From a virus: a DNA stretch of 22,112 nt. Below the pieces are notes generated by a model. It worked only from the letters and a program-made list of their open reading frames with translations, searched no databases and was not told where the DNA came from. A program made the translations under genes and the position numbers. The stretch lies in the IMG/VR virus record IMGVR_UViG_3300043449_001774, positions 1 to 22,112 of that record; one strand, written 5' to 3'. Positions 148 to 19,885 of the stretch are shown piece by piece. Position 1 is the stretch's first letter. Every line of letters starts with the position of its first letter.

Positions 148-1149
148 ATGACTGCACGTTACGCAAACGTCTCCGAAGTTCCGTTGGCGCTGGCCGTATT
201 CCTGGCCAGTGACTTCTACGACCACAACGACGACCCCAACACGATCAGCGCAACCACGCTGCTCAAACCCATCCGTCAGATCGTTCTGCCAAGCCGCATC
301 CCTCCAGGTGAAGGCCTGGTGAATCTGGCCGACATGATGAACAGCCGCATGGGTACCGCCATTCACGACGGGATCGAAAAAGCGTGGATGACCAATTACC
401 GTGAAGCCATGCGAGCCATTGGCCTGCCGGATCGCGTCATCAACAAGGTCGTGATCAATCCGGATCCGCACACACTTGAGCTGAACCCGGATGCCATCCC
501 GATCTATCTGGAGCAGCGCTTAAAGCGTCAGCTGGGCAAGTGGATGATCACCGGCAAGTTCGACTTTGTCGGTGAAGGCCGCGTGCAGGACTTCAAGTCC
601 ACCAGCACCTTCACGTACATGAAGCAGACCGGCTCGGACAAGTACCCGCAGCAAGGCAGCATCTACCGCTGGCTCGACTCGAAGATGATCCACCAGGATC
701 AGATGGACATCCATTACATCTTCACCGACTGGAAAGCGGCGCTGTCGAAGACCGATCCCAACTATCCGCCCCGCCGGTTCCACAAGCAGTCGTATCAGCT
801 GATGTCGCTTGCCGAGACGGAGAACTTTATCCGTCAGAAGCTTGCGCTCATCGAGAAGTTTTTCGATGCACCTGAAGAAGAAATTCCTCTGTGCTCGGAT
901 GACGATCTGTGGCGCTCGGAACCAGTCTTCAAATACTACAAGGATCCGGCCAACGCCAACATCCCAGGCAAGCGCAGCACCAAGAACTTCGACACCCGTC
1001 AGGAGGCCGTTATTTTCATGAGTGAAAAGGGCGGCGTCGGCACGGTCAAAGAAGTCCCAGGCCAGGTCACTGCCTGCAAATACTGCCCCGCATTCGCGGC
1101 GTGCAACCAGAAGGATCAGCTGATTGCATCGGGTGATCTGATTCTCTAA
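148..1149 (+). CDS. PD-(D/E)XK nuclease (RecB/Cas4-like exonuclease)
   Basis: The 333-aa protein carries the PD-(D/E)XK nuclease core. The motif GTAIHDGIE contains His73, the usual N-terminal histidine of RecB-type nucleases. GKFDF has Asp139, QDFKS has Asp148 and Lys150, and QGSIYRW supplies the QxxxY helix (Gln169, Tyr173). These would bind the metal and cut DNA, probably as an exonuclease in recombination or host DNA breakdown. The C-terminus has a CxxCx5C cluster (Cys310, Cys313, Cys319) like the three C-terminal iron-sulphur cysteines of Cas4/AddB. No N-terminal partner cysteine is visible, so a cluster or zinc site is possible but unproven. The start is preceded by AAAAAAGG. The primase gene follows 17 bases later, suggesting one operon. 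The nuclease fold is clear; the exact substrate is inferred. Confidence 0.85.
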   Translation: MTARYANVSEVPLALAVFLASDFYDHNDDPNTISATTLLKPIRQIVLPSRIPPGEGLVNLADMMNSRMGTAIHDGIEKAWMTNYREAMRAIGLPDRVINKVVINPDPHTLELNPDAIPIYLEQRLKRQLGKWMITGKFDFVGEGRVQDFKSTSTFTYMKQTGSDKYPQQGSIYRWLDSKMIHQDQMDIHYIFTDWKAALSKTDPNYPPRRFHKQSYQLMSLAETENFIRQKLALIEKFFDAPEEEIPLCSDDDLWRSEPVFKYYKDPANANIPGKRSTKNFDTRQEAVIFMSEKGGVGTVKEVPGQVTACKYCPAFAACNQKDQLIASGDLIL

Positions 1150-1166: not shown

Positions 1167-3308
1167 ATGAAATCCTACGACGAGATGGAGTTCAACCCGA
1201 CTTCCGAAAAGCTGGTCAACATCCTTTGCAGCAAGACCCAGAACAGCAACCCGCTGTTTTTCCGAGTGCTGGTGGGCTACTACTTCAGCCTGGTGGCTTC
1301 GATGATGCGCACATCCATCGCCACGCATGATCGCGGGGACATCCCCGTGAACATGTATGCCTTGAACCTGAGCACATCGGGTTCGGGCAAAGGCTTCTCG
1401 ACCAACATCATCGAGAACCAGGTGATCAACCAGTTCCGTGGCCGTTTCCTCGAAGAGACGTTCCCGATCCTGGCTGAAAGCAACCTGCCCAAGCTGGCCC
1501 TGAAACGAGCCAACCGCAAGAGCAGCGATCCGGATGAGGAGCTGGTGCGCGTGCAGAAGGAGTTCGAAGGCCTGGGTTCCCTGGTTTTCAGCTTCGACTC
1601 GGGCACACCGGCCGCCGTGAAGCAGATGCGTCACAAGCTGCTGATGGCCGATGCCGGTTCGGTGAACCTGCAGATCGACGAGATCGGTTCGAACCTGGTG
1701 GGCAACGTGGACGTGTTGAACACGTTCCTGGAGCTCTACGACATGGGCCTGATCAAGCAGAAGCTGATCAAGAACACGACGGAGAACACCCGCAACGAGG
1801 AGATCGTCGGCCGCACGCCCACCAACATGCTGCTGTTCGGCACACCTTCAAAGCTGTTGAACGGCAGCAAGACCGAGGAGGAGCTGTACTCGATGCTGGA
1901 GACGGGCTATGCGCGTCGCTGCTTCTTCGGCTACAGCCGGGCTTCCAACAAAGCCATCGACATGACCCCGGAGGAGGTCTACACGCAGCTCACAAACCAG
2001 GACAGCAACACCTACCTGGAAGAGCTGTCGGATCGTCTGGAAGCACTGGCCGACATCATCAACGTCAACAAGCGTCTGGTGATGAGCAAGGAAACCAGTC
2101 TGCTGCTGATCGAGTACCGCCTGAAGTGCGAGCGCGAAGCGGAGCTGTACGCCGAGCACGAGGAGATCAAGAAAGCCGAGATCTCTCACCGCTACTTCAA
2201 AGCCCTGAAGCTGGCCGGCGCGTATGCGTTTATCGACGACTCGCCCGAGCTGACCCAGGAACACCTGTACCAGGCCATCAAGCTGGCCGAGGAATCCGGT
2301 GGTGCGTTCAATCAGCTGCTGACCCGCGACCGTGCTTACGTGAAGCTGGCCAAGTACATCGCCACCTGCAAGCGTGACGTGACTCAAGCCGATCTGGTCG
2401 AAGACCTGCCGTTCTATCGTGGAGCGGCCGGTCAGAAATCCGAGATGCTGAGCCTGGCCATCGCCTACGGCTACAAGAACAACATCATCATCAAGAAGTC
2501 ATTCTCCGATGGGATCGAGTTCCTGCGCGGCGAGACGCTCAAGGAGACCGATCTGAACAAGATCGTCGTGAGCTACAGCCACGACATCACGACCGACTAC
2601 CGCAACGAGTATGCCCCGTTTGATCAGCTGCACCGGCTGACTCAAGCGCCCGGTCTGCACTGGGTGGCCCACCACCTGAACGGCGGCTACCGCAATGAAG
2701 AAAACTGCATGCCAGGTTTCAACATGGTGGTGATCGACGTGGACGGCGGCGTGAACATGAGCACCGTCAAGCTGCTTCTGAAGAACTACAAGTTCCTGCT
2801 CTACACGACCAAGCGACACACCGATGTCGAGAACCGGTTCCGAATCATCCTACCAATCAATTACGAGCTGGCTCTGGATGCCAAGGACTACAAAGAGTTC
2901 ATGGCCAACATCTTCGAGTGGCTTCCATTCGAAGTGGACACAGCAACCAATCAGCGCGCTCGCAAGTGGCTGTCTCACGACGGCACCTACGAGTACAACG
3001 AAGGTGAAGTGCTCGACGCCTTGCCCTTCATTCCGAAGACCAGCAAGAACGAAGAGCGCAAGGAGCTGATGAACTCGCAGCAATCCATGGACAACCTGGA
3101 GCGCTGGGTGATCAACAACATCGGCGACGGCAATCGCAACAACATGCTGCTGCGCTTTGCCATGATCCTGTTGGATGGTGGCTTCGATTTCGAAGCGATC
3201 CGTCAGCGAGTCATCTCGCTCAACAACAAGATCGTCGACAAGCTGGACGAAGCCGAGATCATGGCAACTATTATGGTCACGGTTGCCAAGTCAATGGCTA
3301 AGCGATGA
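1167..3308 (+). CDS. Helicase-primase fusion, N4 gp42-like (DUF3987-type ATPase plus archaeo-eukaryotic primase)
   Basis: The 713-aa protein joins two enzymes. The N-terminal half (about 1-450) is a P-loop ATPase: a Walker A-like GSGKG with Lys75, a Walker B QIDEIG with Asp171-Glu172, and an arginine-rich ARRCFFGY sensor-like segment, as in DUF3987 helicases. The C-terminal half has archaeo-eukaryotic primase motifs: VIDVDGG (Asp524, Asp526), TKRHTD (His551) followed by NRFRIILP, and FEVDTATNQRARKW (Asp591). A PriCT-like tail begins GDGNRNNMLLRFA. It should unwind DNA and make primers at the phage fork. The Walker A loop has Gly rather than Ser/Thr after Lys75, which is unusual. The last 11 codons (3273-3305) appear to have been replaced by the HNH cassette that starts inside its stop codon. 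The assignment to the N4 gp42 family is from motif order and neighbours. Confidence 0.88.
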   Translation: MKSYDEMEFNPTSEKLVNILCSKTQNSNPLFFRVLVGYYFSLVASMMRTSIATHDRGDIPVNMYALNLSTSGSGKGFSTNIIENQVINQFRGRFLEETFPILAESNLPKLALKRANRKSSDPDEELVRVQKEFEGLGSLVFSFDSGTPAAVKQMRHKLLMADAGSVNLQIDEIGSNLVGNVDVLNTFLELYDMGLIKQKLIKNTTENTRNEEIVGRTPTNMLLFGTPSKLLNGSKTEEELYSMLETGYARRCFFGYSRASNKAIDMTPEEVYTQLTNQDSNTYLEELSDRLEALADIINVNKRLVMSKETSLLLIEYRLKCEREAELYAEHEEIKKAEISHRYFKALKLAGAYAFIDDSPELTQEHLYQAIKLAEESGGAFNQLLTRDRAYVKLAKYIATCKRDVTQADLVEDLPFYRGAAGQKSEMLSLAIAYGYKNNIIIKKSFSDGIEFLRGETLKETDLNKIVVSYSHDITTDYRNEYAPFDQLHRLTQAPGLHWVAHHLNGGYRNEENCMPGFNMVVIDVDGGVNMSTVKLLLKNYKFLLYTTKRHTDVENRFRIILPINYELALDAKDYKEFMANIFEWLPFEVDTATNQRARKWLSHDGTYEYNEGEVLDALPFIPKTSKNEERKELMNSQQSMDNLERWVINNIGDGNRNNMLLRFAMILLDGGFDFEAIRQRVISLNNKIVDKLDEAEIMATIMVTVAKSMAKR

Positions 3309-3859
3309 TGCAAGAAATCCATAACGGGCGATACGGTGTGGATGAAATAGGCTTCGTCTATTCTTTGCGTAACCACGCAGGGAATCGACGAACCTCACCA
3401 AAACGGATCGCAACAAAAAGAACGCCTGCTGGTTATTTGACTTGTGGTGCCTATAAAGATGGGCCTACAGGAACCAAGCGCCGAACATATTTTGTTCATC
3501 GGCTGGTTGCATTGGCATGGGTTCCTAACCCATGCAACAAACCAAACGTAAACCACATTGACGGCAACAAAACAAATAATCACCCAAGCAATCTTGAATG
3601 GGTTACTTCAAGCGAGAATTCACTCCACGCTTTTCGTCTTGGACTTCGACATGCAAACCCTGCCCCTTACAAAGGCAGGTTCAATGAGCAGCATCCAAAA
3701 AGCGCGCCTATCCGCCAATTGACTTTGAACGGGGAAGTTGTCCAGACTTTTCCATCAATGCAAGAAGCAAAGCGCCAAGGGTTCTCGCAAGCAAACATAT
3801 CATCGGTAATTGCAGGTAAACGCCAATCGCATAAAGGTTTCCGATGGGAACTTGCATGA
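3305..3859 (+). CDS. HNH homing endonuclease (free-standing)
   Basis: The 184-aa protein has the phage HNH endonuclease layout. A NUMOD4-like N-terminus (about 5-50) is followed by VHRLVALAW (His65-Arg66), then NHIDGNKTNN (Asn83, His84, Asp86, Asn88) and NLEWVT (Asn95, Trp99). The C-terminus (about 130-184) is a NUMOD1-like DNA-binding region ending in SHKGFRW. It probably nicks or cuts a site in a related phage lacking the element, so that repair copies it in. The start ATG overlaps the primase stop (ATGATG at 3305-3310), so translation is likely coupled. Its base composition is clearly more A+T-rich than the surrounding genes, suggesting acquisition. Immediately after it lies a remnant of the displaced primase tail. 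Two start codons are possible, 3305 or 3308. Confidence 0.9.
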   Translation: MMQEIHNGRYGVDEIGFVYSLRNHAGNRRTSPKRIATKRTPAGYLTCGAYKDGPTGTKRRTYFVHRLVALAWVPNPCNKPNVNHIDGNKTNNHPSNLEWVTSSENSLHAFRLGLRHANPAPYKGRFNEQHPKSAPIRQLTLNGEVVQTFPSMQEAKRQGFSQANISSVIAGKRQSHKGFRWELA

Positions 3860-8631: not shown

Positions 8632-8943
8632 ATGGCCAGCAAGCTAGATGAACTCCAACAGAAGATCGCAGCCCTTCAACAGGAACACGATGAGCTGTTG
8701 GCAAGTCAGAAGTCAGAAGCTATAGAACAGATCAATGCAATGATCAAAACCTATGGCATCAAACCACACCTGCTCGACTTTGGTGGGCCCACAGTGGGTC
8801 GGACTCCAATCCGATCCACCACCAAGCCAGCAATCAAATATCGCAGCCCGAGTGGTTCATGGTCAGGTCGTGGGCGCAAACCGAAATGGGTGGATGACCA
8901 CCTGAAAAGTGGCGGTACACTCGACGACTTTCTCGTCAAGTAA
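8632..8943 (+). CDS. H-NS-family DNA-binding protein (phage-encoded)
   Basis: The 103-aa protein has the two-part H-NS plan. Residues 3-42 are a heptad-rich coiled coil (LDELQQKIAALQQEHDELLA) for oligomer formation. A basic linker follows. Residues 69-102 are the DNA-binding domain with KYRSPSGSWSGRGRKPKW and LDDFLV. The GRGRKP loop is the AT-hook-like element that reads the minor groove of AT-rich DNA in this family, and the WSGRGR form is typical of betaproteobacterial H-NS relatives. It may coat phage or host DNA, or mix with and disturb host H-NS. It is the last protein gene before the large RNA and faces the same way. Confidence 0.85.
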   Translation: MASKLDELQQKIAALQQEHDELLASQKSEAIEQINAMIKTYGIKPHLLDFGGPTVGRTPIRSTTKPAIKYRSPSGSWSGRGRKPKWVDDHLKSGGTLDDFLVK

Positions 8944-8972
8944 CCCAAGCCCGGCATTGTCTGCAGGAGGGC

Positions 8973-8980
8973 TATAAAAT
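8973..8980 (+). promoter_or_regulatory. Candidate -10 element for the large noncoding RNA
   Basis: TATAAAAT lies 29 bases after the H-NS-like stop and just before the structured region. No good -35 box is present at 17 bases. TTGTCT at 8957-8962 is only 10 bases away. GTCTGC (8959-8964) and GCAGAC (8984-8989) also form an inverted repeat around it. It may be a weak sigma-70 promoter needing an activator, a site for the phage's own middle RNA polymerase, or not a promoter at all. Confidence 0.3.
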
Positions 8981-9242
8981 CCGGCAGACCGACTCATCCC
9001 CGTAAGGGATGATCATCATGAAGGTGGATTGACAGCGAGAAGGGCTACAGCACGAAGGGTTTGATCCCCGTGGCTGGGCACCCTCGGTAGCGCACTGGCC
9101 AGTGACAGTCCACCCCCATGATGAAGCGAAGTACAAGCGAGATCACGTTACCTTGGGCAACGAAACCAAGGTGTAAGGGCCTGTGGCTGAAGTCGGTACG
9201 ATACCAAGGGTCAACGGTGGACCTGGGCAGGCAAAGACCGAG

Positions 9243-9264
9243 ACATCCCGGAGAGACGGGAACC
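9243..9264 (+). repeat. GAGAGA-loop hairpin, copy 1
   Basis: ACA-T-CCCG-GAGAGA-CGGG-A-ACC. CCCG (9247-9250) pairs with CGGG (9257-9260), extended by T9246-A9261. It abuts the 19-bp helix that begins at 9262, so the two could stack end to end. Confidence 0.85.
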
Positions 9265-9356
9265 ATCAAGCAAGCCACTGAGCCTGGGAGTCGCGCTCCG
9301 GGTCGTTTCAGATGACAACAGCCGGAAGGCTAATTGGCAGTGGCTTGCTTGATGGT
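9262..9356 (+). other. 19-bp perfect RNA helix with capped subdomain
   Basis: Bases 9262-9280 are exactly complementary to 9338-9356 with no mismatch. The 57 bases between contain a GGAG/CTCC hairpin (9287-9290 with 9296-9299) and an AGCC-GGAA-GGCT stem with a GNRA tetraloop (9320-9331). Such a long uninterrupted helix in a noncoding stretch strongly supports a folded RNA. Confidence 0.85.
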
Positions 9357-9561
9357 GACTCGTAGCACAGCCGATCCTGTGTGTAAGCCCTTGTCGTAAC
9401 TACATGCCAATGTGGGGGCTACGATTGGCCACCATCAACCAATTACTCTCACAGGTTCGCCTGTGACTTGTCGGCCCAAGATACGGGGTGCCGCACAAGC
9501 TGGATTGCTTGTAATGTGCGACATGAGAACGCCTGGAGTCAGAAGTCCAGCAGAACGGCGT

Positions 9562-9584
9562 GACATTCCGGAGAGACGGAAACC
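9562..9584 (+). repeat. GAGAGA-loop hairpin, copy 2
   Basis: GACA-TTCCG-GAGAGA-CGGAA-ACC. TTCCG (9566-9570) pairs with CGGAA (9577-9581). Compared with copy 1, the C9247-G9260 pair is replaced by T9567-A9580, a compensating change that keeps the stem. Confidence 0.85.
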
Positions 9585-9682
9585 AAACATCAACGAGCAG
9601 CGGTAATACACGATCTACCAGCATGAGTCGCCAGAGTACGCGTAAACCTCTGGGGCAAGCAACAGTGCATGAACATTCGTGT

Positions 9683-9711
9683 GACACCCCGGAGAGAAAC
9701 GGGGAGGAACC
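9683..9711 (+). repeat. GAGAGA-loop hairpin, copy 3 (loop extended)
   Basis: GACA-CCCCG-GAGAGAAA-CGGGG-AGGAACC. CCCCG (9687-9691) pairs with CGGGG (9700-9704) and the loop is two bases longer than in copies 1 and 2. It lies directly before the terminator stem. Confidence 0.8.
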
Positions 9712-9740
9712 CCCCAGGTAACACTGGGGGGTTTTTCTTT
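9708..9740 (+). terminator. Strong intrinsic terminator at the 3' end of the large RNA
   Basis: AACCCCCCAG (9708-9717) pairs with CTGGGGGGTT (9724-9733) around GTAACA, then TTTTTCTTTT. It is oriented for rightward transcripts. The T run touches the stop codon of the convergent virion RNA polymerase gene (stop at 9740-9742). In the leftward direction the hairpin is not followed by a T run. Confidence 0.95.
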
Positions 9741-12700
9741 TACTTGATCAGCGCCATCGATGCTGCCACCGCCGGCAGCTCGTCGATCACACCAAAGCCC
9801 TGCAGTGCACCCGATCGGAACGGATTGTTTCCGAAGTGGTGGATCCAGGAGCTGTCCAGAACGATGGGTCCGAGATCCACGAGCTGGCCCAATGCAGCCA
9901 ATCCCAACACCCTTGCAGGATTCTCACGAAGCGTATCCACAAGCACACGCTGAATGCGCAGGAAATACTTGCTGAACGGTGTGAAGCCCATGTCGTCGGT
10001 GTACTGCAGCGTGCGGTGCATCGGCACGTCGTAATTCACAAACGAATCCGAAGCCTCCTGGATCGCATCTTCATGCGTGAGCGGGTTCTCCGCGCGCGTG
10101 GTCAGGTGCTGATAAAGCGCATACCGAGCCACGAAGTCCGAGAGCTGCGTGGTTTTGCTCAGGAACTGGTAGGCCTTGGTGTCCCGGGTCATGAACACGT
10201 TGCGCCCCACCGTCTTCAAGCCCTCGGGCACACGGTTGGTGATGCCCTCGGTCTTGCGCTGCAAGAGCGTCTTGTACGAGTAGATGTCTTCGTCGGCCGC
10301 CACGTCTTCCACGATGGTCGGCATGAGGCCGGCATCGATCAGTTTTTTCACCGGGTTGCGATCGATCCGGTCACGCAGCTCCACCACCTGGTCGCGCATC
10401 TGCGCGTCCTTGCCCTGGGTGTACCCCAACTCGAGTTTCGTCTGCAGCTCCATCAGCTTGCGGGAATCTTCCTGATAGGCCATGGCCCCTTTGATCGCCA
10501 CGAGCTGGTGCTTCCAGCGGTCATCCACACCCTTGGCAAACAGCAGCGAGTCGTTGCTGTAGATGTTGCCCAAGAGCGTGAAGATGTTCTTCACCACGAT
10601 CACGTCCTTGATGGCTTGCACGATCTCCATCCAGCCGCGCTCGCCTTTGGCCAGAGCCACGCCCATGCGCTTGGCAAAGTCATCGGCCTGCTGCTCGTCC
10701 ATGCCCCGGGTCTTCGCATAGAGGTGAAACACGTTGCGGGCGATTCTCTGCACGCCGTCCAGGGCAGCGCGCTCCTTGCGAAGGAAGTCCGCCGCGCTCA
10801 GCTTGCGGTACCCAAAGAAGATGTCCAGCGAGTCCTTGCGCACGTACATCCCGTCGATGCCCCAGATCTTGCGCACCGCGCGCTTGGTGCCATCGGGCAG
10901 CATCTGCCAGAGCTCGCGCATCTCGGGATCCTTGCTCTTGGCCCCCACCATCACATAGGCATCGCTGTTGTAGGAGTGGTCTTCTCTGTACTGCTCGCGC
11001 AGTGCACCGATCGCCTTTTCGTTGCTCTCCTGGCTCGACACCTTGTCGAAGATCGAACCGGCCAAGGTACCCAGCACCTGGTCGAAGCGGTTGTCGCGCT
11101 CCAGCAGATCGTCCTTGGTCTTGGCCTGCATCAGGTAGCGCCAGTTCACGATCTGGCCCTTGTCGTTGTAGACCGGAGCCAGATTGCTTCGGCGCTCCTT
11201 AGACATGTCGCGGCCTGGGTCGATGACAGTCTGCAGGTTGTCCAGCTTCGCGTTGGTGATGCTGGCCTGAAGCTGGGCATTACCCAGCCCCGTGTTGTTG
11301 CGCACGTCCATGTAGCCGCTGTGCACCGAGGAGCCCTTGGACTGCATGCTGGTGAGCGACATGATGCCGGACAGCCACGGGGCCAAGCCACCGTCTCTGA
11401 GCACATAGATGTTGCGCAGCTCGGCGCTGGGGTCCGCCGGGTCGGCATAGACCTTGGCACCCTTGCTGTAGCCCTGGGCCATCAGGCGCTGGCCATCGGC
11501 CACGTTGGCCGTGGTCACCTTGGTGTGCGGGTTCACGATGTCGGGCGTGTAGCCGTGCTCCATCAGCATGGGGTTGCCGTTGAACAGCCGCTCCAGTGAA
11601 TCCTGCTCCAGCTTCTGGTGAACTTTCAACAGGAAATCCACACCGTTTTCCCCATCCGTGCGCCCGTTCTCGGCGCGCAGGATCTCCTTGGCCATGGCCT
11701 TCTCATTGGCATGGCTGTAGCGCAGCGCGTAGAGCGAAACCAGCGCAGTGATGACGGGCTCGGCAGCCTTGGCCTCTTCCTCGCTGACCAGATTCGTGTA
11801 CTGGGTGCCGGCCAGGCGCGCAATCGCATGCCCGTTGAGCATCAGAACGTCCAGCGGGTTGCCGCCGGTGGCCTTGTAAAAGCCCAAACCATTGGCCTGC
11901 TGCACGTACAGCGACTTGGCCCGGGTGTTCAGCCGCGCTTCGAACGAGGCGATGGCCTTGGTGAGCTCGGCCGGTGTGCTGAGCAGCTTGTCCATCTCGG
12001 CCAGAGTGAAGTGGGCCAGCAGATTGTGGGCACCGGTGCGCATGAACACGTTCGTGACGCTGGTCGTTTGCTCCTTGGTGAACGACGCCCCATTCTTGAA
12101 CGCCTTGACTGCCATTGCCGCGTGCTCGGTGATCAGCTTTTTACGCTGGTTTTCCCGATGCTTGACTTCGCGCAGCAACGCCCCAAATGCCTGGATTGGT
12201 CCCTTCAATTCATTCAGCAGGCCAGCCCCCAGACCATCACGCTCCTTGAACTGGGCATCGCGCACTTTGCGCAGGCTCTCCATGTACTGATCCGCATAGC
12301 CCCCGGCCACTGTCCGGGCCAGCGTTCCAGTGGCGCGCACCACGGCACTTGAGCTGTCACGCACCATGTCGGAGTTCAGCGCGGCCGTGGCCTTCTCACG
12401 CAGCGACTCGGTCACCCGCTTCACACCGCGCTCGATCGGATCGATGTAGCGGTTGCCGTCCTGCTTCAGGATCAGCGCATGGCGCTTCTTGGCCTCGATG
12501 TCCACCAGCTGCCCCACCAGGGCCTGCAGTTTCTCGTCGGCCACCTGTCCGCCAAAGACATGCGTCACCTTCTCGCTGAAGAAGGCCAGCACTTTTTCGT
12601 AGATGTTGACCAGTCGGTCGAACAGCGTGTTGCCATCGCCAAACTCACGGGTATCGGCCAGCGTATTGAACTTCAGCAGCTTGTTGAACTTCTGATTGGC

Positions 12701-15700
12701 CAGGCCTAGTGCCGCAAAGCGGGCCAGGTAGTCCGAACGCTCGCCGTTGTCCGTCGTCATGCTGAAGACAAAGTCGTAATCGGCCTGCGATGCGAAGTCC
12801 GAAGGCTTCAGTGTCGCGCGCGCCTCGGCATAGAGCTTGGTCAGCTCCTTGTAGACCATCGTGGTGGTGGCATCGTTGCCCTCCAGCGCAGCCTTGACGG
12901 TCAGCTCCACCTGTTGCATGGCGAAGTCTTCCTGCGCGCTGCCGGCAAACCCTGATGCCACGATCGCAGAAGCGAACGGAGCGCGCCCTGTTTCGATGGC
13001 CTTGAGCCAAACGGCCAGAGGGTTGTTGGCTTCGGTCTTGCGCATTGCCGCGGCAAACGCACCAAACGGGCCGTGCAGGGCCTCAACGATGCCGGACAGC
13101 AGATTGCCCAGGTGTTCCTGGAAAACGGGCTCCACGGCCCCGTTATCGAGCCCCTGCAGAATCTCCAGTGTGGTGTACGACTCGATTCTCTCGTCGGCCT
13201 CCATGTAGAAGTCCATCGAACGCTTGGGCTTGTCCTTGAAAGCAGCCGCTTCGGTGAACAAACCTGACACGTTGCTGACCAGAACAGCCATGCCGTTCTC
13301 GATCTCGGCGTCGGGACGGCCCAACAGCATCTCGGTCAGCGTCGCGATGAACTTCTGAAGCCCGTTGAGCAGAGTGTTGCCTCGGGTCTTGGATGGCATG
13401 GAGATTTTTTCCAGAACACCTTTCTGGAACTCCTCGTTCGTCAGGCCATAGGCCACGAACTCCTGGATGTCGCCCAGGGCAGCTTTAAAGCGTTGCTTTT
13501 GCTCATCGGTAGCCACTTCCATGGCTTTTGCGCGCAGATCTTCGAGCTCGGCAATCAGCGCCTTGGCTTCGGTCGATGGGCTCTCGATCGTGTAGGCGAT
13601 CGCCGCATGCACCATCTCGTGCAGCAGCAAGCCATCGTTCAACTGGGAGAGCACGTACTCGGGGCTCTTCACATAGATCTCTTCCTTGCCGGCCTTCAGC
13701 GAATACCAGCCCAGCGCCCGGGCACTGCCCATGCCCAGCACTTCGTCCTGGGTGGTCTTGGCCGTCACGTATTTGAAAGTCAGGTTCGGGCTGAGTGTCT
13801 TGCTCAGCAGGTACAGGATCTTGCGGTTCACCGGCGACAGCCGGCCAGGCTGCGACAGGAATGCCACAACCTCGCCCGAAGTCGGGTTGGGGTTGGCTTC
13901 GAAGAAAGCCACCAGCGCAGGATCACTGGCCTTGCGGGCCTGGCCAAGTTTGCCGAACGGCGTTTCGGTGACCTGAGGCTCAGCGGCCTTGGCCTGGATC
14001 TCCTCAACCTTGGCCTGAGCGTCTGCCACCGGCGCGCCGTTGGTCATGTCCATGAAGTCGAACAGGGTCTTCTCATCCGCAGCGGTCATCTTGCTGGGCA
14101 GCGAGTTCAGCATGGCCACGGCCATGTCCCGGTCATCCTTGGTGACGGCATAGCTGCCACCATCGAATGCGTACTGGTCCACCGAAGTCCACTGCGACAT
14201 CGCTTCGAGCTTGGTCTTGTTGGCCAGCAGTGCGGCGTTGAAGACTTCATAAACCGCCATGGGAACCACGGACACCGCAGGCGTCTCGCCCTTGGTGCGG
14301 TTCTCCTGCTTTTTCAGCACAGCCATCAGATTGGCCTTGGCCGCAGGGCTGAGCTTGCCTTCACCGTCCAGCGCCACAATGCCGCGCACCACCTGCATCA
14401 GCGCCTCATGCGCCGCATCGAGCGGGGAATAGTTGAGCAGGCTGTCCCAGGTGTTCTCGTTCATGGCCTGCGAAGTCGAAGCCAACGAACCAATGCCATC
14501 ACCCACCGCGTCGTGCACGTTCAGAATGTTGCGGCCCAGTTGGGTGCTGTGCGAGATCTTGCTGTCCAGCGCCTGGGTCGAGCCGGAGATGGCCATCACC
14601 CCGGGCGATGTCTGCTGCATGGCCTGGCCACGCACGGTGAGCTGGCTGGCACCGGTTGCCAGCTTGGTACCGAACTTCACCTCCACCGTGTAGCTGGGGC
14701 TGTTCACGGTGCCGCGCTCTTTCTTGGCCAGCAGGATGCCGTTGTTGATGTTGCCATCGTCCGTCGACATGGCCGTGTGCATCACAGGGGCCATGGACTT
14801 CATGCGCTCTTGCAGCTCGCGCTCTTGCTCCATGCTCAGATCGTGGATCGGAGCGCCCTTGTTCACCGGGATCCCCAGCGACTGGATCATTTCTTTGCGC
14901 ATGGCCTGGTACACGGCGTCGTAGAGCTCGTAGCTCAGCTGGGTCGTGTTGGTCAGCAGGCGGGTCTTTTCCAGCAACGGGCCAAACGATTCCTTGATCG
15001 TCTCGGTTGCAGTCTCACCGACCGTCTGCGTGTAAGCCTTCTCCAATGCCTTGGTCTGCCACTTGTTCAGCTCGGTGCGCATGTAAAACGCAATGGGCTG
15101 GCCAACAGGCAACGGTTTCTGTTTGCCTGCCTTCAACAGCACGTTCAAGCTGCTCACGAACGCATCGATCTTTTGCTGCGATGAGGATTCTCTGGAGAAC
15201 ACCTCGAACTGCGCGTAGATGCCGTCCACATAGGCGGCTGCCATGTTCTGCTGAATCTTCTTGAAGCCCGAGCCATAGTTCAAAGGGTTCAGCGCAGTCT
15301 TCAGCAGGTTGCGCCCACCCTTGGTGACGTTGCCCTCTTCATCGACCGGCACCTTGGAGGTGGCCCAGATGGCGGAAACCAGCTCAGCAAACTTGGGGTC
15401 GGCCGCAGACTGGGCAGTGATCGCTTCGTCCACCAGCTTGGCATTGGACTCGTAGATGTCGGTGTTGCCATTGCCGTACCACTCGCTGTACTTCTGGGCA
15501 ATGCTCTTGGCCGTGTAGATGCCGCCGCGCTCAAGGAGCGAGTTCAGCAGATCGGCCGACATGGCCGCGCCGTACAGGACGTGGTTCAGGATCGAGCCGT
15601 TGGACACGCCGTCCACTTCACCCATCAGGTTGGTGGTGAACTGCTCGGCATTGGTGTCCACTGCCTGCTGATAGCGCGCATAGGCAATCAGGGCGGCCAA

Positions 15701-18700
15701 CGTGTGAAACTTCTCACCGCCGGCGGCCACTGCATCGACCACAGCCTGCTGCTGCTCGGCGCTCAACTCCTCTTCAGTGAACAGGGACTGCTGAAGCGCC
15801 TTGACGCCTGCGACCATGCCCGGCTCTTGCATCTTCGAATCTAGCCAGGCCACAGACTTGCTGCTCTGGGACTTCTCGGTCTTGCGCCCCAGGCCTTCGG
15901 CCACGCGCAGCTTGAAGCCCTGCATCATTCCCTCATCAGTGAGGGAGACATCGGTGGCCCATTCTTTGGGTGACGCCAGCCAGCGCGCAATCTTGTTGGT
16001 CTGCGGATTGCCGATCGTCTCCTTCAGACCCGCGCGCTGCTGCTTCCACATGTCGGGGGTGTAGAAGAACCCTTCATCCTGCTTGCCTGCTGCCGCCCGT
16101 TCGCCGACCCAGTCCATGAACTGCTTGAAGTTGCGAACGAGCCCGTCGTTCTTGGCCTTCTGGCTTTTCTGGTTGCGCGCATGCGTGGTTTCGTTGGTCA
16201 TCGCCACCACACCGGCCATCTCCAGCGCCCGGTCTTCATCGAACGAAGCCAGCACCTTCATCGGATCCTGGTTGACGTACCACTTGTCCTGGGTCTGCTT
16301 CTGACGGAACACCCGCTTGAGCAGCTTGGTCACACCCATGCCGGTGTCAGAGGTCTGCTGGACCTTGGTCTTGGGCTCCTCGCTGGGAGCCTGAATGCCC
16401 GACTCGATGCCGAACAGGTTTGGCACCACATTCTGCGAGCCGCGCAGCGCATCGGACACGTCCGTGGACTTCTCGGCCAGCTTGAAGAAGTAGTGATCGC
16501 CCACATGGCTGTCGACCACAGGAACATCCTGTTCTTCTTTGCCTTCGTTCCTGAGCGCAGTGATCTCGGCGGCAGGAATCGCATCGCGACTCACCATGCC
16601 CTGGTCTTCCATCAGCTTGAGCGCGTGCGCACCCAGCGATGCGCGCAGCTTGGCCAGCATGTCCTGGGGTGCGTTTTTCAGCAGCTTCAAGCCAAGCGCA
16701 TCGATCACCTTGGTGCCCAGAGAATCGATCACCGCGGACTGGTACGTGCCCACGTTCTGCAATGCGCGTTTGGCATCGCCAGACACCGGGTCATCACCCT
16801 TGCGCCCCAGGATCGCATTGATGGCCGCATCGTTGTTGATGCTGCTTCGGCCCGCCTGGTCCCCGACGAACGCAAACACGGCCGCAGAGATAGCGGTCTT
16901 CACGTTCTCCTCGATGTCGGCCTTGTTGCCGGTGCCTGTGATCAGGTAGCGGATGGGGTCTTCGTAGTTGAAGAGCGCGTTGTGCGAGGGGCGCAGGTTG
17001 CGTCGGATGTTGGCCGACCACTGAGCGGACTTGGCCGCAAACATGCTGAGTGCCACACGCTGTGCATCGGTCAGGGCCTCGGCCTTCAGGTAGTCGCCCA
17101 GCTTGACCGTCTTGTCGGCCCACTGGGTCATGAAGTCCTTCACGGAGACCAGCGCACGCTTGGAGCCATCGGTGTCTTTACCGGCAGATTGCGAGAAGAA
17201 GTCACCGAACTTCTTCGCGTTGTGCGCAGTACCTTCCTCGGTGGTCTCGGCAACGGCAGCAAGCTCGCCGGTTTGTGGAACGGTGGCTTTCTCGGTTGGT
17301 GTAGTCTTCTCAGTAGACTGAGTTTGACCTTCAACCGAAGACTTAGCTTCCTCAGTAGCAGCAGTCTCTACAGCAGCATCTTCAGTTGCCACAGCAGAGG
17401 CCGGAGCCTCCTCATTTACATCATCGGCTTGGACGGTGCTGTCTTGGGCATTGTCTGTCGCCGAGGCAGCGTCGCTTCGTGCTCCGGCAGCACTGGGTGC
17501 TTCTTGTCCTTGCGCTTCTGTTTGCTGGGCTTGAGCGGCTTGAGTGCCATCGGTTTTCTCCTTGGTTGAAATCTTCATCGCAGCGATGAGTTCATCCTGC
17601 GCTTTGGTCAGTGCACCGGCTTCGGCTTTGATCTGGTTGACCAGCTTCTCCGAACGCATCGTGATGTTCAGCCCGCCGTTCTCAACGCGCGCAGCTTCAC
17701 TGCTCCACAGCCCGGGCTCAAGGCCCCAGCCTCCATTGCCGTCGCTCACCAGACGGCTGGGCACCCCAGAGTCCAGCGCGGACTGGGCCAGCGCGGCTTT
17801 CTGGTTGTGGTCATCCACGAAGCGGGACAGCTGGGCCATCTGCTTGCTGGCCGATGCGCGGTTGCCGGCATCCAGCGCCGCAGCCACGCCGGCCCGGTAA
17901 TCCTTGATGCCGACCATGGCCTTGTCGGCGTTGCCAAGGAAGATCTCCTTGGACACGTCGTCCATGCCCATCAGCTCGTTCTCGGCCTGACGTGCAGCGG
18001 AGAACTTGCGCAGGTATGCGCGCTGGTCTTCGGTGAGCGTGTTGGTGGTGTCATCGGCCATCTCGCTGGCCAGGCTTGGGCTCAGCCGCTCGGGGATGGT
18101 CATCGACAAGTTGATGATGTCGCTTGCAGCCTTGGCCGAAACCACCGGATCGGGATCCTTGAGCTTGGTGGCTTCCACCTCTGGATCGATGTCCTTGGCC
18201 TGCAGCTCCTGGTGCAACGTGGTCAGCCCGGACTTGGCAGCCATGAGCTGCTGATCGGCCTTGGCCAGCTGGGCCTGCAGGCGAGCGGCCGCTTTAGGGT
18301 CCGCACCTGCATCGGCAATCATGGTTTCGAGCAGCGCGGCCCGGGTGTCGTCGCCGTTGGCCTTGGCATCGTCCAGCTTGGCCCTGAGCGCGGACACACC
18401 TTCAGGTGACACCGTGTCATAGGCCTGTTGGGTCTCGGCCTTTTTGGCTTCCAGGTCGGCAACGATCTGGGTGGCCTTCTCCAGGCTGCTCTTCTTGGCT
18501 TCCGGGGTCGCATCCGCCCGGCTGGCATAGCCTTGCAGTGCGGCAATCGCATCGGTAGGGGAATAGCTGGCCGACTTCTGATCCAGAAGGGCAGACACGT
18601 CCCCGGTCTCCACGGCCGTCTTGATTGCGTTCCTGTCCTTGGGCGCTGGCCGGGTTTCAGCCACTGGATCGGGGATGGAAAGATCTGCGCCGGCGATGCC

Positions 18701-19885
18701 CTTGGCATTGAGGTCATTGCTGCGTGCGCGACGCATGGCAAACGCCGTTTCGGGTGCGCTTTGCGTGAATCCGGCTGCAGCTTCGATCACCGCGTCGTAG
18801 ACATCGGCTTTTCCGGTGGCAGCGAGCTCCCCCAGGTACTCACCCGTGCCTTCGCCCACCGTTTCCATCGTCAAACCAGTGGCCGCAGTCACTGCCTTGG
18901 TACCAATGTTCGATGTCTGTCCGGCAGCGGCCCGGCCAGCTGCTTTTGCGCTACCGCGCAGGATCGGATCAGCCAAAGCGGTCTCGATAGCCTGCAGACT
19001 GGTCACATCCACGCCGGCGTTGGCCAAAACGCGCGCTTCAGCTCGGGCACCCGCTTCAATGGCCGCTTTGTTGAAGGTCTTGGCTGCTTTTCCGCCCAGG
19101 CCCAGGGTCACTGCATCCACTGCAGTGATCACGCCGCCCTTGATGGCCCCTTCCTGGATCGCTTCGGTACGTTTGGCATCAGTCATGCCGCCGTCTTGGG
19201 CCTTTTCCATGGCCTTGCTGCCGGTTTCCAGAATGGCATTGCCCAAAAACATGCCACCCAGAAAACCAATGGCACCACCAGCGGCCGCACCGACCGGGCC
19301 CAGTGCTGCTCCGACGACCGCGCCGGTTTTTGCTCCAACCAAACCAGAACCCAAGGCCACCGCGCTGTTGGGCAGCTGCTCGGCAATGAATTCAGCCGTG
19401 CCTTGGGGGTTGTCGAACATGGCTCCAGAGACATTCTGGACAGCAGAGATGACGCCGGGGTTCAGATCGGCCTTTTTGCGTCGCTCGATCTCATCCATGA
19501 GCATCGATTTGGCAATCGGGCCCTTTTCACCAGCGGCTTTTTGGCTGGCAGCCAGAGCATCGATGCCTGCGTTGTTGCGGGTCAACGCATCAGCCGCTGC
19601 TCCGATCGATCGGCCCGTGTTTTTTGCGCCTTCAAAAACGGCTTCACCCACATTGACCAGTGAACTGGGAATGCCCTGGGAATCCAGACCCATCTGGCCC
19701 GCCCACGAAGCTGCCGCTTGCGCTTCTTGAGCCAAACGCAGCTTGCGCAGATCTTCCAAAGACGCCTGCTTTTCTTTGCTGGCCGCTTGCACCTGGTCGT
19801 ACTTGGTGGAAATGCCCAGCAAAGCGTTTTTCTCAATCTCCTGAGAAATGCGGTCGTTGAAATAGTCCCGGAAGTCGGTCGCCAT
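9740..19885 (-). CDS. Virion-encapsidated RNA polymerase, N4 gp50-like, 3381 aa
   Basis: This giant protein would be packaged, injected with the DNA, and transcribe the early genes. Residues about 170-225 are a Gly/Ala-rich hydrophobic stretch (GLVGAKTGAVVGAALG) that could insert in a membrane. About 775-888 is an Ala/Glu/Gln/Thr low-complexity linker. The polymerase domain (about 870-1980) has single-subunit polymerase motifs: QQR with Arg1284 followed by GNPQTNK (T/DxxGR region), EVDGVSNG with Asp1425 (motif A), RNLLKTALNPLNYGS with Arg1525, Lys1529 and Tyr1537 (motif B), and NVHDAVGD with Asp1792 (motif C). Spacings resemble N4 mini-vRNAP (R424, D559, K670, Y678, D951). LLHEMVHAAI (His2089, Glu2090, His2093) and later Glu2142 in IQEFVAYG look like a zinc peptidase site. 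The last 1200 residues are mostly helical and unassigned. GAAAGAA precedes the start. Confidence 0.92.
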   Translation of the reverse strand: MATDFRDYFNDRISQEIEKNALLGISTKYDQVQAASKEKQASLEDLRKLRLAQEAQAAASWAGQMGLDSQGIPSSLVNVGEAVFEGAKNTGRSIGAAADALTRNNAGIDALAASQKAAGEKGPIAKSMLMDEIERRKKADLNPGVISAVQNVSGAMFDNPQGTAEFIAEQLPNSAVALGSGLVGAKTGAVVGAALGPVGAAAGGAIGFLGGMFLGNAILETGSKAMEKAQDGGMTDAKRTEAIQEGAIKGGVITAVDAVTLGLGGKAAKTFNKAAIEAGARAEARVLANAGVDVTSLQAIETALADPILRGSAKAAGRAAAGQTSNIGTKAVTAATGLTMETVGEGTGEYLGELAATGKADVYDAVIEAAAGFTQSAPETAFAMRRARSNDLNAKGIAGADLSIPDPVAETRPAPKDRNAIKTAVETGDVSALLDQKSASYSPTDAIAALQGYASRADATPEAKKSSLEKATQIVADLEAKKAETQQAYDTVSPEGVSALRAKLDDAKANGDDTRAALLETMIADAGADPKAAARLQAQLAKADQQLMAAKSGLTTLHQELQAKDIDPEVEATKLKDPDPVVSAKAASDIINLSMTIPERLSPSLASEMADDTTNTLTEDQRAYLRKFSAARQAENELMGMDDVSKEIFLGNADKAMVGIKDYRAGVAAALDAGNRASASKQMAQLSRFVDDHNQKAALAQSALDSGVPSRLVSDGNGGWGLEPGLWSSEAARVENGGLNITMRSEKLVNQIKAEAGALTKAQDELIAAMKISTKEKTDGTQAAQAQQTEAQGQEAPSAAGARSDAASATDNAQDSTVQADDVNEEAPASAVATEDAAVETAATEEAKSSVEGQTQSTEKTTPTEKATVPQTGELAAVAETTEEGTAHNAKKFGDFFSQSAGKDTDGSKRALVSVKDFMTQWADKTVKLGDYLKAEALTDAQRVALSMFAAKSAQWSANIRRNLRPSHNALFNYEDPIRYLITGTGNKADIEENVKTAISAAVFAFVGDQAGRSSINNDAAINAILGRKGDDPVSGDAKRALQNVGTYQSAVIDSLGTKVIDALGLKLLKNAPQDMLAKLRASLGAHALKLMEDQGMVSRDAIPAAEITALRNEGKEEQDVPVVDSHVGDHYFFKLAEKSTDVSDALRGSQNVVPNLFGIESGIQAPSEEPKTKVQQTSDTGMGVTKLLKRVFRQKQTQDKWYVNQDPMKVLASFDEDRALEMAGVVAMTNETTHARNQKSQKAKNDGLVRNFKQFMDWVGERAAAGKQDEGFFYTPDMWKQQRAGLKETIGNPQTNKIARWLASPKEWATDVSLTDEGMMQGFKLRVAEGLGRKTEKSQSSKSVAWLDSKMQEPGMVAGVKALQQSLFTEEELSAEQQQAVVDAVAAGGEKFHTLAALIAYARYQQAVDTNAEQFTTNLMGEVDGVSNGSILNHVLYGAAMSADLLNSLLERGGIYTAKSIAQKYSEWYGNGNTDIYESNAKLVDEAITAQSAADPKFAELVSAIWATSKVPVDEEGNVTKGGRNLLKTALNPLNYGSGFKKIQQNMAAAYVDGIYAQFEVFSRESSSQQKIDAFVSSLNVLLKAGKQKPLPVGQPIAFYMRTELNKWQTKALEKAYTQTVGETATETIKESFGPLLEKTRLLTNTTQLSYELYDAVYQAMRKEMIQSLGIPVNKGAPIHDLSMEQERELQERMKSMAPVMHTAMSTDDGNINNGILLAKKERGTVNSPSYTVEVKFGTKLATGASQLTVRGQAMQQTSPGVMAISGSTQALDSKISHSTQLGRNILNVHDAVGDGIGSLASTSQAMNENTWDSLLNYSPLDAAHEALMQVVRGIVALDGEGKLSPAAKANLMAVLKKQENRTKGETPAVSVVPMAVYEVFNAALLANKTKLEAMSQWTSVDQYAFDGGSYAVTKDDRDMAVAMLNSLPSKMTAADEKTLFDFMDMTNGAPVADAQAKVEEIQAKAAEPQVTETPFGKLGQARKASDPALVAFFEANPNPTSGEVVAFLSQPGRLSPVNRKILYLLSKTLSPNLTFKYVTAKTTQDEVLGMGSARALGWYSLKAGKEEIYVKSPEYVLSQLNDGLLLHEMVHAAIAYTIESPSTEAKALIAELEDLRAKAMEVATDEQKQRFKAALGDIQEFVAYGLTNEEFQKGVLEKISMPSKTRGNTLLNGLQKFIATLTEMLLGRPDAEIENGMAVLVSNVSGLFTEAAAFKDKPKRSMDFYMEADERIESYTTLEILQGLDNGAVEPVFQEHLGNLLSGIVEALHGPFGAFAAAMRKTEANNPLAVWLKAIETGRAPFASAIVASGFAGSAQEDFAMQQVELTVKAALEGNDATTTMVYKELTKLYAEARATLKPSDFASQADYDFVFSMTTDNGERSDYLARFAALGLANQKFNKLLKFNTLADTREFGDGNTLFDRLVNIYEKVLAFFSEKVTHVFGGQVADEKLQALVGQLVDIEAKKRHALILKQDGNRYIDPIERGVKRVTESLREKATAALNSDMVRDSSSAVVRATGTLARTVAGGYADQYMESLRKVRDAQFKERDGLGAGLLNELKGPIQAFGALLREVKHRENQRKKLITEHAAMAVKAFKNGASFTKEQTTSVTNVFMRTGAHNLLAHFTLAEMDKLLSTPAELTKAIASFEARLNTRAKSLYVQQANGLGFYKATGGNPLDVLMLNGHAIARLAGTQYTNLVSEEEAKAAEPVITALVSLYALRYSHANEKAMAKEILRAENGRTDGENGVDFLLKVHQKLEQDSLERLFNGNPMLMEHGYTPDIVNPHTKVTTANVADGQRLMAQGYSKGAKVYADPADPSAELRNIYVLRDGGLAPWLSGIMSLTSMQSKGSSVHSGYMDVRNNTGLGNAQLQASITNAKLDNLQTVIDPGRDMSKERRSNLAPVYNDKGQIVNWRYLMQAKTKDDLLERDNRFDQVLGTLAGSIFDKVSSQESNEKAIGALREQYREDHSYNSDAYVMVGAKSKDPEMRELWQMLPDGTKRAVRKIWGIDGMYVRKDSLDIFFGYRKLSAADFLRKERAALDGVQRIARNVFHLYAKTRGMDEQQADDFAKRMGVALAKGERGWMEIVQAIKDVIVVKNIFTLLGNIYSNDSLLFAKGVDDRWKHQLVAIKGAMAYQEDSRKLMELQTKLELGYTQGKDAQMRDQVVELRDRIDRNPVKKLIDAGLMPTIVEDVAADEDIYSYKTLLQRKTEGITNRVPEGLKTVGRNVFMTRDTKAYQFLSKTTQLSDFVARYALYQHLTTRAENPLTHEDAIQEASDSFVNYDVPMHRTLQYTDDMGFTPFSKYFLRIQRVLVDTLRENPARVLGLAALGQLVDLGPIVLDSSWIHHFGNNPFRSGALQGFGVIDELPAVAASMALIK

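Follow-up and report, generated by a model that had tools for sequence, protein, structure and literature searches.

The window (the whole 22,112-nucleotide stretch analysed, a 22-kb viral record) contains at 8949-9741 (+) an element of about 790 noncoding bases, which is almost certainly a real structured RNA and a member of a modular connector-hairpin family. This family is large and phage-borne: closed helical domains are joined by a TGACA-hairpin-ACC connector, the domains are swappable, and they sometimes carry a tRNA or tRNA-like insert. The member in the window consists of a 5′ pseudoknot leader, two P3/b:c domains, the modules M2 and M3, three connectors and a terminator. With somewhat less than even confidence, we propose that it represents a phage RNA of a new kind, in which folded cassettes that can replace one another are strung together by a shared connector hairpin and receive tRNAs and other structured domains. 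Such an RNA would have a built-in three-strand exchange, in which the near-identical strands a and c compete for strand b, and unrelated phages, of Pseudomonadota and of other phyla besides, would share it through recombination.

The gene content of the window is that of an N4-type (schitovirus-like) phage, and its rightward genes encode a primase, an HNH endonuclease, a Sak4-like protein and a single-strand binding protein (SSB). The endonuclease, at 3305-3859 (+) between the primase and the downstream genes, is of the homing type with an I-HmuI/NUMOD-like tail. Directly 5′ of the RNA, 8632-8943 (+) encodes a 103-aa H-NS-like protein (Pfam Histone_HNS, E = 3.6e-12, with the similarity in the C-terminal domain), relatives of which also occur in L006, L007, L012, L016, L043, L045 and L050. 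The giant leftward gene at 9740-19885 encodes 3381 aa and has a virion RNA polymerase domain that scores slightly below the curated cut-off. The RNA occupies the convergent gap between these two genes, with the following features.

8949-8989 (+): 5′ leader, an H-type pseudoknot of 8949-8952:8969-8972 and 8959-8964:8984-8989, with an A-rich loop between
8994-9012 (+): leader hairpin TCATCCC/GGGATGA with loop CGTAA, sitting where a connector hairpin would
9013-9124 (+): first P3-type domain, helix 9013-9034/9103-9124, 82% paired, around an insert
9242-9261 (+): connector hairpin 1, GACA-TCCCG-GAGAGA-CGGGA
9262-9356 (+): P3 domain, a 19-bp perfect helix of strand a (9262-9280) and strand b (9338-9356)
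9321-9330 (+): GGAA-capped hairpin in the P3 insert
9349-9438 (+): b:c domain, b 9349-9357 TTGATGGTG and c 9430-9438 CACCATCAA
9450-9465 (+): TTCG tetraloop hairpin CACAGG/CCTGTG (CACTGG/CCAGTG in L016)
9472-9560 (+): module M2, helices 9472-9475/9490-9493, 9530-9533/9557-9560 and 9534-9537/9546-9549
9561-9584 (+): connector hairpin 2, TGACA-TTCCG-GAGAGA-CGGAA-ACC
9588-9681 (+): module M3, helices 9609-9613/9677-9681, 9621-9624/9665-9668 and 9631-9636/9648-9653
9682-9704 (+): connector hairpin 3, TGACA-CCCCG-GAGAGAAA-CGGGG, a variant with an 8-nt loop
9708-9741 (+): intrinsic terminator of the rightward transcript, as read from the sequence

A first-pass annotation of the window had described a large structured noncoding RNA at this convergent boundary in an N4-type phage, and both the covariation and the lack of a conserved frame reported below support that description. 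Its individual elements were also recovered: 15 inverted-repeat pairs lie within 8900-9760, where at least ten complementary segments had been counted, one of them being the 100% identical 19-nt pair that forms the described 19-bp helix, and the GGAA and TTCG tetraloops fall at the positions listed. The longest stop-to-stop frame is only 114 codons, in agreement with the claim that the region has no plausible gene, and M2 and M3 have no frame, on either strand, that stays free of stops in all homologues. The MFE of the region is -325.5 kcal/mol (z = -6.4), which none of 20 shuffles equalled. The minus strand folds about as stably (z = -6.3), so that energy alone cannot pick the RNA strand. A long-range pair in the MFE structure, 9036-9046/9386-9396, was judged to be chance because L016 retains its second strand without the first. 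Group I/II introns, RNase P and tmRNA were considered from motifs and obtained no model support.

The crossing pairing of the first-pass annotation corresponds to the H-type pseudoknot of the leader. In L007, 65 nt are 100% identical at this place, and in L041, L043, L045 and L050 the pseudoknot stems vary in a compensatory manner (CCCGCC/GGCGGG, CCTGCC/GGCAGG and GCCC/GGGC; GTCTGC/GCAGAC and GTCTTGC/GCAAGAC). Because of this pseudoknot, the 5′ limit of the annotated region (8987-9736) should be moved to about 8949, so that the pseudoknot is included. The leader hairpin becomes GGTGCC/GGCACC or CACACC/GGTGTG in relatives with its CGTAA loop kept, and the insert of the first P3-type domain varies among them. 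At the 3′ end, the annotated terminator was found as CCCCCCAG-GTAACA-CTGGGGGG followed by TTTTTCTTTT; it is missing from the output of the automatic scan, probably since its hairpin pairs part of the T run.

A feature absent from the first-pass annotation is the presence of three copies of one connector hairpin, and the RNA is therefore a tandem of modules. The consensus of the connector is TGACA-[5-bp stem, GARAGA loop]-ACC, and in all three window copies this arrangement, with a covarying stem, follows a closed helix. Scans of collections with exact patterns, which are biased toward copies with the fixed letters, found the connector in at least 120 viral stretches, versus 14 stretches in 84,980 prokaryote genomes. 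The outermost stem pair, which the scan pattern left free, is paired in 105 of 106 non-redundant copies (as GC, CG, TA or AT), versus 50 expected. Moreover, the bases just 5′ of TGACA close a helix in 87 of 106 copies, compared with 51-68 in shifted controls, and AA precedes this closing helix in 23 (controls: mean 6, maximum 14). On the other side, a P3 helix with a score of at least 9 begins exactly at ACC in 17 of 102 loci, versus 1 and 0 when the start is moved one and two positions upstream; examples are ACCATCA/TGATGGT, ACCAACA/TGTTGGT and ACCTATA/TATAGGT. A reading of hairpin-ACC as a tRNA-like minihelix that mimics an RNase P substrate was attractive and was rejected; ACC pairs within P3 in about one-fifth of cases.

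The P3 and b:c domains form a three-strand arrangement, which in the window is made of 9262-9280/9338-9356 and 9349-9357/9430-9438. The b:c domain encloses GTAGC 9362-9366/GCTAC 9418-9422, and strands a and c have ACCATCAA in common, so that both compete for b. Homologues preserve b:c by compensation, sometimes better than a:b, as in L053 (12 bp), L121 (12 bp), L125 (15 bp), L154 (GAGGGTG/CACCCTC) and L107 (TTGTTGGTG/CACCAACAA). In the wider set of loci with domain B (described below), b:c has a mean of 8.2 pairs, versus 4.4 when the partners are exchanged at random (no more than 4.7 in any of 200 shuffles), and an a:b score of at least 11 was obtained in 19 of 99 loci, versus 1-2 in controls. 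These strands may act sequentially: as they emerge, c would displace a from b via branch migration, and this exchange would decide which fold results, or would link adjacent molecules. We consider such a step in folding unlikely. In L052, at 1001-1024 (-), a connector is joined straight to ACCATCAACC without an insert, as if a P3/b:c domain had been lost between the direct repeats a and c. Since strand b covaries with a as well as with c, this 'empty' form is unlikely to reflect an intron or transposon.

Covariation among homologues, which the first-pass annotation had set as a check, is strong for the connector, M2, M3 and the b:c helix. For M2 (13 sequences), 96.4% of cells are paired versus 81.3 in shuffled alignments, two-sided changes occur in 9 of 17 pairs, none of 500 shuffles did as well, and the covariation score is 0.416 versus 0.132 for shuffled and at most 0.092 for slid structures. 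For M3 (8 sequences), the corresponding values are 93.1% versus 84.2, 11 of 20 pairs, 0 of 500 shuffles, and 0.341 versus 0.163 and at most 0.120. These alignments are small, and the counts include connector 2 for M2 and connector 3 for M3. In addition, the structures were partly read from the tested sequences, which makes the slid controls somewhat favourable to these structures; the two-sided changes are independent of that. The stretch 9588-9612, GAGCAGCGGTAATACAC, resembles the 16S rRNA 530 loop and is kept in M3 copies, probably by coincidence; the likeness of M3 (GAGCAGCGGTAATAC) to this loop is supported by no SSU model.

Relatives of the array were located via neighbouring proteins and one conserved 20-mer. 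In N4-like relatives, pieces of the window RNA stand at the same place, about 80-100% identical and rearranged, drawn from a shared pool of modules: the leader, M2, M3, P3 helices that hold varied inserts, and a number of alternative b:c domains. L045 and L048, for example, carry the insert block of the window P3 domain (9262-9356) at other places of their arrays. Order and number of modules vary widely and the arrays range from only 114 nt (L007 and L009) to about 1.3 kb (L025), which counts against a precise multimer. Hence, the single fixed molecule of about 750 nt that had been annotated gives way to a mosaic of modules shuffled between phages. Since modules and not the whole RNA are conserved, a blastn search of named phages with the complete window RNA gave only one 33-nt match at chance level.

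The annotated assignment to GOLLD or ROOL was not borne out: no Rfam family reached its gathering score in the window, and nothing relevant was found to E = 10 on 8900-9780. The accession that had been given for GOLLD (RF01998) is presumably not that of GOLLD (RF02032), and this slip is immaterial because all Rfam families were searched. Connector and domain B likewise matched no Rfam family in the related loci examined. GOLLD and ROOL are phage-encoded RNAs near tRNA islands that form RNA-only cages, and GOLLD sometimes has a tRNA within its linker region and has one universally conserved 3′ region (PMC12286853). The array resembles GOLLD as a large noncoding RNA of phages or prophages, and ROOL as a large, ornate, phage-encoded RNA. 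Proximity to tRNAs may be a further likeness, since tRNAs are enriched across the family as a whole, but the window itself has no tRNA. However, neither covariance model matches the window or the related loci, the architecture differs from that of ROOL, and exchangeable modules with a repeated connector stand in place of the conserved 3′ region of GOLLD. Size, phage location and tRNA association would fit a very divergent GOLLD or ROOL, but with no match to E = 10 and a modular rather than fixed architecture, we find this scarcely credible.

Following b:c outward revealed domain B, GGTGAAT-GCGC-AGGCTGAT-GCGC ... CCGG-AGATCAGCA-CCGG-CCACC, in 87 stretches via its 5′ side and at least 120 via its 3′ side. 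Many members of the family, but not all, carry domain B. In the window, the place between b and c is taken by another domain (9358-9429), and only the b:c socket is common to it and domain B; connector, P3 helix and this socket are the shared elements. The loops of domain B are mutually complementary, with variants GCTGAT/ATCAGC, GTTGAT/ATCAAC, TTGC/GCAA and TGGTG/CACCA. The shuffle test of this loop-loop pairing is borderline (5.04 observed, 5.04 in the best of 300 shuffles) because most copies share one sequence.

A small conserved core, covarying stems and a loop-loop contact would also suit self-cleaving ribozymes, in which the connector junction or domain B would cut itself and separate the units. 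Like hammerheads and other self-cleaving ribozymes of phages, these are small covarying RNA motifs in intergenic regions, and one connector has a hammerhead-like sequence upstream (CTGATGAG..CGAAAC, stem III ACC-GCGA-GGT, L057 4371-4438), whose match to Rfam Hammerhead_3 (E = 0.014) is below the gathering score. However, connector and domain B match no Rfam ribozyme model and no cleavage-site signature was recognised in them, and we regard this explanation as quite improbable.

Domain B is widespread among phages. With two queries containing it, blastn matched 247 and 185 named phage records, some in part only, and related domains occur in P1, P7, HK620, Felix-O1-like phages and one phage of the BASEL collection. 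In complete E. coli genomes, the P1 form was matched in 840 of 5,426. In P1, domain B lies directly 3′ of tRNA-Asn and tRNA-Thr. The P1 record (L386) has two tandem a/b/c units right after tRNA-Thr at 2430-2790, the first with a T-arm hairpin insert, and no RNA is annotated there. In the Felix-O1-like phage Henu11, domain B is within the tRNA cluster, and in the schitoviruses IME11 and nithesis it stands between the SSB operon and the virion RNA polymerase gene, which is the position of the window array. In IME11 (Escherichia phage, Gamaleyavirus), about 2 kb without gene annotation extend from the SSB operon to gene 66 (L388 2058-4142) and contain domain B, tRNA-Ile, a second tRNA and more tRNA-like hairpins.

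In HK620, the related domain is located between pR′/qut and the annotated late terminator tQ and is therefore expected in the pR′ leader transcript. This position is that of the lambdoid late-leader RNA (6S-type, from pR′ to the late terminator), whereas the window array follows rightward genes of an N4-like phage. The classical 6S leader is not known to hold these modules. The late-leader region of HK620 (L391 1390-1600) holds the same modules as a schitovirus. HK620 and IME11 have the block CGCACTGGCCCGGTGTGATTAATAATGGGCACACAACAGGTAAGAGCATT in common, and array segments thus pass between unrelated phages. This segment common to a lambdoid phage and a schitovirus, the mosaic module order and the L052 connector, which resembles an empty site, might also reflect an element acting at the DNA level, with the hairpins as recombination sites or as parts of a non-autonomous mobile element that moves between phages. 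However, RNA is indicated by compensatory changes that preserve pairing, by the complementary loops and by tRNA inserts confined to one strand; inspection of the surroundings, short of a systematic search, showed no transposase; and homologous recombination between shared modules suffices to explain the shuffling. The probability of a DNA-level element is very small.

Both connector and domain B are associated with tRNAs. A tRNA on the same strand within 600 nt was found at 15 of 106 connector loci, versus about 2.6 expected, and tRNAs occur at 12 of 134 domain-B loci, versus 1.3 expected. T-arm hairpins are present on the same strand in 25 of 134 domain-B loci, versus about 1 expected, and on the opposite strand in none. 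Given this strand asymmetry together with the terminator, sequence evidence points to the + strand of the window as the probable RNA strand. The inserts and neighbours range from full tRNAs (L051, L095, the tRNA-like sequence of L051 being the P3 insert) to decayed ones (L025, L174). This range, the enrichment and the restriction to one strand could indicate tRNA decoys that absorb anticodon nucleases or further systems directed at tRNAs; such a role would account for the fast shuffling. But a tRNA-like character is lacking in most modules and in every module of the window; we consider the decoy explanation improbable.

As the best overall explanation, to which we give about an even chance, we propose a modular phage RNA that is transcribed and acts in trans as a scaffold of exchangeable domains. 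During infection, the rightward transcript of the middle genes would end with the array, which would then carry or display its domains in an RNA-only or RNA-protein assembly. By analogy, this trans-acting role may be comparable to that of GOLLD and ROOL; we hold this part more tentatively. Counting against it, many connectors stand singly right before a gene or tRNA, which suits a cis role, and no single gene family was found downstream. For this reason the main rival is that the units are cis-acting processing or stabilising elements, with the connector and its closing helix shielding or defining the RNA ends where genes and tRNAs are transcribed together, and with several such elements in a row making up the array. 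Connectors are often placed shortly after a stop codon and 20-50 nt upstream of the next start codon, tRNAs start directly or shortly after ACC in L073, L166, L181, L183 and L139, and what follows 3′ may be unrelated genes of all kinds, tRNAs or more modules. However, cis elements leave unexplained the covarying M2, M3 and domain B, the loop-loop pairing and an array that has only a terminator at its 3′ side, and we judge this rival to be unlikely.

If the scaffold explanation is right, a very widespread family of structured phage RNA has been overlooked, and what GOLLD, ROOL and other large, ornate RNAs of phages do could be tested with standard laboratory phages of E. coli K-12. For RNA folding and RNA engineering, the modular architecture and the competition among strands a, b and c would be of interest too. 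In the open-access literature, the connector and domain B sequences were not found in any phage context, nor was a paper found on noncoding RNA of N4-like phages. One viral contig with a domain-B copy also carries, at L190 8777-8959, the reverse-transcriptase-associated RT-15 RNA (RF03018, 167 bits).
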